NCBI GenBank assembly: GCA_024275565.1
Contig: JAJRYY010000054.1
Coordinates: forward strand, 1 to 48,124
DNA: 48,124 bases
Direction: 5' to 3'
Origin: Planctomycetota bacterium
Lineage (GTDB): Bacteria > Planctomycetota > Phycisphaerae > UBA1845
Made by a program: the position numbers and the translations under genes. Shown piece after piece: positions 29,385 through 30,931 of the stretch; the stretch's first letter is position 1; every line of letters begins with the position of its first letter. Under the pieces are notes generated by a model. The model was given only the letters and a program-made list of their open reading frames with translations, was not told the DNA's origin and ran no database searches.

Positions 29385-30677
29385 CTATGGTGCGTCGCCG
29401 ATGCGTTCCTCCATGTCCGCCAGGACATACGCTACCGTTGCCAGCATGGCGACGTTTCTGGACAGGTCGTGGGGATCGATTTTGTCCAGTGTGTCGGCGG
29501 GTGTGTGGTGGTAGTGGAAATATGTAGATTGTTCGACTTCGTGCCCCATGACGACCACGTCGTATTGTACCATTGGGCTGACATCTGCTGCGCCTTGGCC
29601 TGGGATGATTTGTCTGGCGCCGAGTGATTCTACCAGCTTCATGATTTCCTGCATCTGGACGACAGCCCGGTCCTGTTTTGCCTTATTATTGCATTTGACG
29701 CCGAATCCGCGTGGGGCGAAGCAGCCACTGTCGGATTCGATGGCAGCGACGTGATTCAGCATCTGTGACTGGTGATTTTTGGCGTATTGTTTTCCGCCGC
29801 CGAGTCCGTTTTCCTCGTTGGTCCACAGGACGACCCGGATTGTGCGACGGGGGATGAGGTTTAATTGCTTCAGTATCCGGGCAGCTTCCATCGCGAGGAT
29901 GCACCCACATGCGTCGTCGTGTGCTCCCTGTCCTACATCCCAGGAGTCGATGTGTCCGCCGATTACGACGATTTCTTCGGGGCGTTCTCTGCCGATGATC
30001 TCACCGATGACGTTGGCAGATTCGACAGGGGCGTGGTTTTTCGCTTCCATTTTGAGGGTGACGGAGACCGGGATTCTGCGTTCGACCAGTCTTGCGATCA
30101 TGGAGGCATCTTCGACGGTGAGCGCTGCTGCTGGTATTTTATTCGCGACGTCGCCATACCGCATGCTGCCGGTGTGGGGTGTGCGGAGGCTGCCGGCGGT
30201 GACAGATCGGACGAGGCAGGCGGTCGCACCCATCTCGGATGCAAGGCGTGCGCCGTGGACGCGGTATTTGACGCTGCTGCCATATTGCGTCCCGTGCGAA
30301 GGATCGAAGGGCGGCATTGGATTGTTGAACAGCACGATTTTGCCGCGGATTGCATCGCTTCCGAGGGATGTCAGGGATTCTTCGCTGTCGACGACAACGA
30401 CCTCGCCGGTGATGCCCTCTGGTGGTGTGCCTACCGAACCCCCGAGTCCCAGCATGACGAGCGACTCATGTCGCGGTGCGATCAACTCGAGTGATTCTTC
30501 ACCTCGAACCCATCTTGGGACCGTGACGGGTTCGAGGCGGACATTTTGGAGCCCGTCGCCTCGCATGCGTTCTGCTGCCCAGAGGATGGCTTGCTCGAGC
30601 TGGGGTGATCCACTGAGCCGGTGCCCGATGCCGTCGCAGAGTTCTTCCATTTTTCGCCACGCATGGTTGCCACCCAT
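29385..30677 (-). CDS. M28 family zinc aminopeptidase, mature part; signal peptide separated by a stop codon
   Basis: 430 residues from ATG 30677. All metal ligands of the M28 family are visible: GGHIDSWDVG (His242, Asp244), AHDD (254/255), NEENG (Glu288/289), ESDSG (Asp316) and HHTPADTLD (His391). A protease-associated domain insert is likely around 85-200 (GEVVVVDSEESL). Such enzymes cleave N-terminal residues outside the cytoplasm, yet this frame has no signal peptide. The same frame, read upstream, continues 34 more codons (EQRYRPVADRIIS) to a TAA at 30780-30782, and beyond that a perfect signal peptide. The original gene therefore probably began at 30857. Whether a cytoplasmic form starting at 30677 is made is unknown. 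Confidence 0.88.
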   Translation of the reverse strand: MGGNHAWRKMEELCDGIGHRLSGSPQLEQAILWAAERMRGDGLQNVRLEPVTVPRWVRGEESLELIAPRHESLVMLGLGGSVGTPPEGITGEVVVVDSEESLTSLGSDAIRGKIVLFNNPMPPFDPSHGTQYGSSVKYRVHGARLASEMGATACLVRSVTAGSLRTPHTGSMRYGDVANKIPAAALTVEDASMIARLVERRIPVSVTLKMEAKNHAPVESANVIGEIIGRERPEEIVVIGGHIDSWDVGQGAHDDACGCILAMEAARILKQLNLIPRRTIRVVLWTNEENGLGGGKQYAKNHQSQMLNHVAAIESDSGCFAPRGFGVKCNNKAKQDRAVVQMQEIMKLVESLGARQIIPGQGAADVSPMVQYDVVVMGHEVEQSTYFHYHHTPADTLDKIDPHDLSRNVAMLATVAYVLADMEERIGDAP

Positions 30678-30779
30678 GACGGTGGAGATGATGCGGTCAG
30701 CTACCGGGCGGTATCGCTGTTCGAGGGATTTGGATTGAAACTGCGACTGGCTGGCGGTCGAGGTGCCGGGTGTATCGGA

Positions 30780-30857
30780 TTACTCTGCGTGAGAGGCGTG
30801 CATAGATGCGGTTGCGATTGTCAGGGTGATGATCGCTACCAGGCTGGTGTACCGCAT
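30780..30857 (-). pseudogene. Signal-peptide reading frame cut off from the M28 peptidase
   Basis: ATG 30857, with AAAGG six bases before, encodes MRYTSLVAIITLTIATASMH followed by ASHAE and TAA. It is a classic signal peptide with an AXA-type end (SHA), in the same frame as the M28 peptidase. The intervening 34 codons are typical of the family's N-terminal region, so the TAA looks like a single nonsense change. Confidence 0.75.
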
Positions 30858-30931
30858 ATTCAACCTTTCAAATTCTGTCTGTATCTGTCTGTATCTGTCT
30901 ATCATTGCAGGGTCAGTCGACGATCCGGTTG

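Follow-up and report, generated by a model that had tools for sequence, protein, structure and literature searches.

A single in-frame stop codon separates the export signal of an M28 peptidase from an otherwise intact enzyme frame

The interrupted peptidase gene

The window, by which we mean the whole stretch of 48,124 nucleotides analysed here, carries on its minus strand a reading frame (30857-29385) that translates as MRYTSLVAIITLTIATASMHASHAE*SDTPG..., with a stop at codon 26. An earlier note on this DNA had described a signal peptide beginning at ATG 30857 and ended by a TAA 25 codons further on, with the same frame continuing into an M28 peptidase, and the translation bears out this arrangement. 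The 25 codons from ATG 30857 (30783-30857, minus strand) encode an export-signal-like stretch, called from a hydrophobic run with an A-x-A-like end rather than by a signal-peptide predictor, and orthologues have comparable hydrophobic stretches at this position. The premature TAA follows directly (30780-30782, minus strand), and between it and the terminal TAG at 29387-29385 (minus strand) lie 464 sense codons. The first 34 of these (30678-30779, minus strand) lead up to ATG 30677 and form the N-terminal part of the mature peptidase with most of helix 1, as judged from alignment, from the residues Y23 and I30 and from a predicted helix at residues 19-36. The body of the peptidase then extends from ATG 30677 to the TAG (29385-30677, minus strand).

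The identity of this body is supported by a match to the M28 family PF04389 (E 2.4e-30, 106.1 bits vs a curated cut-off of 21.3) and by its likeness to 3iib, an M28 precursor from Shewanella amazonensis that is the nearest solved structure in sequence as well as in predicted fold. The post-stop protein matches 3iib with a phmmer E of 1.9e-75, and its AlphaFold2 model, which has a mean pLDDT of 92.5, aligns with it at a TM-score of 0.90 over 447 columns, with 35% identity. The likeness covers the whole post-stop length and includes the metal-binding positions, the difference being that in the window copy a stop stands between the export signal and the mature enzyme. The exported M28 type to which 3iib belongs is also related to mammalian plasma glutamate carboxypeptidase. 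All of the metal ligands are present, as the earlier note had stated, at H276, D288/D289, E322/E323, D350 and H424/H425 in post-stop numbering, and they occupy invariant columns in an alignment of 31 sequences. The window gene is the sole full-length copy of the peptidase in its genome.

Just upstream of ATG 30857, between it and a DUF885 gene, repeat detection found a 10-bp tandem repeat of 2.7 copies (30874-30900), which lies inside a possible in-frame extension from ATG 30905. A longer N-terminus beginning at this ATG is possible, yet the TAA would still be in frame. A conserved operon comprising the peptidase and its DUF885 and NAPRTase neighbours was also considered and rejected, DUF885 being found beside one orthologue and NAPRTase beside none within 1.5 kb.

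Orthologues and the downstream start codon

The peptidase is common among genomes of the family and order to which the window belongs, and is mostly present in single copy. N-termini were read in 55 distinct orthologues, of which 54 belong to this family and order and one (L035) comes from another record. In all 55 a hydrophobic export-type stretch runs on into the enzyme, and no stop was found between these two parts; export signal and enzyme, continuous in these proteins, are discontinuous only in the window copy. Orthologues such as L007, L006 and L045 share approximately 52-64% identity with the window protein over the body, together with the same N-terminal helix, and differ from it in having no stop between the export stretch and the enzyme. 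Because the match to the open orthologues extends across the frame, sequence comparison rules out a chance reading frame as its origin. In the alignment, the 34 codons that separate the stop from ATG 30677 fall on the N-terminal end of the mature enzyme in the relatives. Two of their residues, Y23 and I30 in post-stop numbering, are shared by 95% or more of the orthologues, which agrees with the earlier description of these codons as family-like. A TAG flagged in the G080 orthologue was discarded, as it falls outside the aligned stretch of that gene. A search of viral contigs gave no exact match to the sequence around the stop. A YPETEP-like motif occurs just past the hydrophobic export stretch in the M28 orthologues of L016, L019, L021, L025 and L028, and the window copy is without it.

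The earlier note had also raised ATG 30677 as the possible start of a cytoplasmic form, and had proposed a comparison with close relatives. Such a functional cytoplasmic peptidase, produced by internal initiation or by re-initiation, would be consistent with an ATG that is in frame and with a catalytic body that is intact from there onwards. ATG 30677 is the first ATG, GTG or TTG past the TAA, with no alternative start of these three kinds in between. However, it lies 34 codons downstream, which is a long way for re-initiation, and none of the 55 orthologues starts at its equivalent. Furthermore, helix 1 is predicted in the AlphaFold2 model to span residues 19-36 (pLDDT approximately 97) and ATG 30677 corresponds to residue 35, such that a start at this codon would delete 16 of the 18 residues of this conserved helix along with the near-invariant Y23 and I30. 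Pairing with the anti-Shine-Dalgarno sequence upstream of ATG 30677 amounts to +0.7 kcal/mol, that is, to none, and ATG 30857 is preceded by a weak GAAAGG Shine-Dalgarno-like stretch (-3.8 kcal/mol). The comparison of the two starts is modest evidence and carries limited weight, because the median at random positions is -3.2 kcal/mol and approximately one in two of the other window genes tested shows stronger pairing. A short isoform would be expected to have a start that is conserved in relatives and an initiation signal, and ATG 30677 has neither. Since no orthologue starts there, the ATG lies inside helix 1 and Shine-Dalgarno pairing is absent, the alignments and the structural model do not support a cytoplasmic form, and we consider it very unlikely. 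A search of the literature on internal initiation and on draft-genome errors returned nothing pertinent.

Single-stop genes and stop readthrough

Single-stop genes occur elsewhere in the genome, and the presence of a stop is not special to the peptidase. At least four other genes in the window's genome have a frame that is continuous but for a single stop, and in two of these a Pfam domain spans the stop, namely an ABC ATPase with a TAG (C189:6174-6596, equivalent to L081:775-1197, minus strand) and a protein kinase, likewise with a TAG (C209:15978-16733, equivalent to L082:779-1534, minus strand). Two more, a TldD-like gene with a TAG (L133:18496-18498, minus strand) and a VWA-type gene with a TAA (L124:5700-5702, minus strand), were recognised by gene architecture only. 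In the relative G023 a TAA falls inside the exonuclease domain of PolA (L162:205-207, plus strand), where again a Pfam domain spans the stop, and gene architecture alone points to a TAA in an ABC ATPase (L161:10688-10690, minus strand) and to a TAG in an MCE-type gene (L162:15305-15307, minus strand). The C189 and C209 cases came from domain scans of the window's genome, which was sampled in stretches; the remainder came from approximately 565 kb scanned for stops flanked on either side by coding sequence, a scan that yielded many chance matches and ordinary gene neighbours and from which the named cases were picked by eye, so that they do not give a rate. An earlier scan for interrupted genes that used codon usage was too insensitive. 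Among approximately 155 listed kinase matches of the family there was one other stop.

The occurrence of several genes with a single TAA or TAG in a continuous frame would be in keeping with readthrough of the peptidase TAA, whether by a suppressor tRNA or as a programmed event, in which case the exported enzyme would still be made. A candidate for such a tRNA is provided by ARAGORN, which called ordinary anticodons among the tRNA matches of the genome except for one tRNA-Stop(tta) (G000:C76:45849-45932). However, this call corresponds to the first half of a tandem tRNA-like RNA (L187:986-1134, minus strand, equivalent to G000:C76:45785-45933) that lies directly downstream of rtcA, a gene assigned by reading its ORF. 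The RNA is conserved in seven relatives at 72-81% with its D and T arms kept, and an rtcA homologue adjoins it in four of the relatives. Its anticodon varies among them (tta, gaa, caa, tga), and on this ground a suppressor tRNA was rejected. It also gives a weak YrlA-like match; YrlA, encoded in the Salmonella rsr-yrlBA-rtcBA locus, is a tRNA-like RNA that accompanies an RNA-repair operon (PMC7790460). Because the arms are kept, the anticodon is not conserved and rtcA is its neighbour, the RNA resembles YrlA more than it does a suppressor tRNA, and it is possibly a YrlA-type or repair-related RNA of an rtc operon.

Further observations weigh against readthrough. TAA terminates 9 of 31 window genes and TAG 6 of 31, and these codons are therefore normal terminators in the window. 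The sequence after the peptidase TAA shows no excess of structure (z -1.4), and no Rfam recoding element was found at the TAA. Reassignment or suppression of the stop would call for a tRNA that reads UAA and for UAA not to serve as a terminator, and neither was seen among the tRNA matches or the window genes. We regard readthrough of the peptidase stop as highly improbable. Were the stops scattered through these genomes real and the proteins still made, tolerated readthrough would be indicated; that the lineage tolerates single stops in this way, through appreciable readthrough by which the peptidase, the ABC ATPase, the kinase, the TldD-like protein and the PolA of the relative are all still made, is less credible still.

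Recency and origin of the stop

The frame beyond the stop bears no sign of decay. Among 133 nearly invariant positions, 4 are altered in the window gene; orthologues have 2.4 such changes on average and 7.8 at most. No second lesion was found in the peptidase frame. We simulated decay by adding random substitutions, and scored a sequence as matching the observed state if it had no further stop and at most 4 extra broken sites. With divergence set to 1.4%, 2.2% and 2.9%, the simulated probability of such a state was 0.35, 0.12 and 0.02, respectively, and neutral drift of more than 2-3% since the stop arose is unlikely. The earlier suggestion that selection kept the enzyme until recently is thus upheld, drift above approximately 3% being hard to reconcile with the few changed sites and the lack of a second lesion. 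With 0.76 changes per column the terminal branch leading to the window gene is long, and any period of relaxed selection must therefore be a very small part of the history of the gene. The window gene combines a stop that is missing from orthologues with conservation of the remaining frame, as would be expected of a recent nonsense pseudogene. The lack of decay fits a recent mutation and a base error equally.

Taken with the open frames of the orthologues, these observations make it very probable that the locus is an ordinary gene for an exported M28 peptidase and that its one stop represents a recent nonsense allele or else a base error of the draft assembly. According to this explanation, a single full-length gene for an exported M28 zinc peptidase would have gained a nonsense codon right after the export signal, either because the sequenced population recently acquired a nonsense mutation or because the draft consensus has a wrong base. 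If the stop is real, translation from ATG 30857 would yield only a 25-residue peptide, and we infer that the mature enzyme would be lost or made at a very low level; the intact downstream frame would then be left over from selection that was at work until very recently.

The second branch of this explanation, in which the gene of the organism is intact and the stop stems from an error of consensus or assembly, or from a minority strain variant that entered the consensus, is a serious contender that falls somewhat short of probable. It is favoured by the state of the source genome, a draft of 236 contigs with 1.66% estimated contamination, by the occurrence of single stops in genes that are expected to matter (the ABC ATPase here and polA in G023) and by the undecayed peptidase gene. 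However, at normal coverage it is uncommon for consensus errors to produce exactly one in-frame stop, and no other damage was seen in the window, where neighbouring genes look intact and the contig therefore does not appear to be generally poor.

The stop as an observation is real, and the biology is ordinary. As it stands the case is of limited significance, concerning a lone nonsense codon in the gene of one secreted peptidase, in a draft genome. It does counsel caution: frame-intact single-stop genes are scattered in this genome and in a relative, and gene loss should not be inferred from such drafts without reads. Young nonsense pseudogenes and single-base errors in drafts alike present one stop in an otherwise intact, conserved frame, with further cases scattered in the genome, and the peptidase gene shares all of these features; it differs only in the notable position of its stop, right after the export signal.
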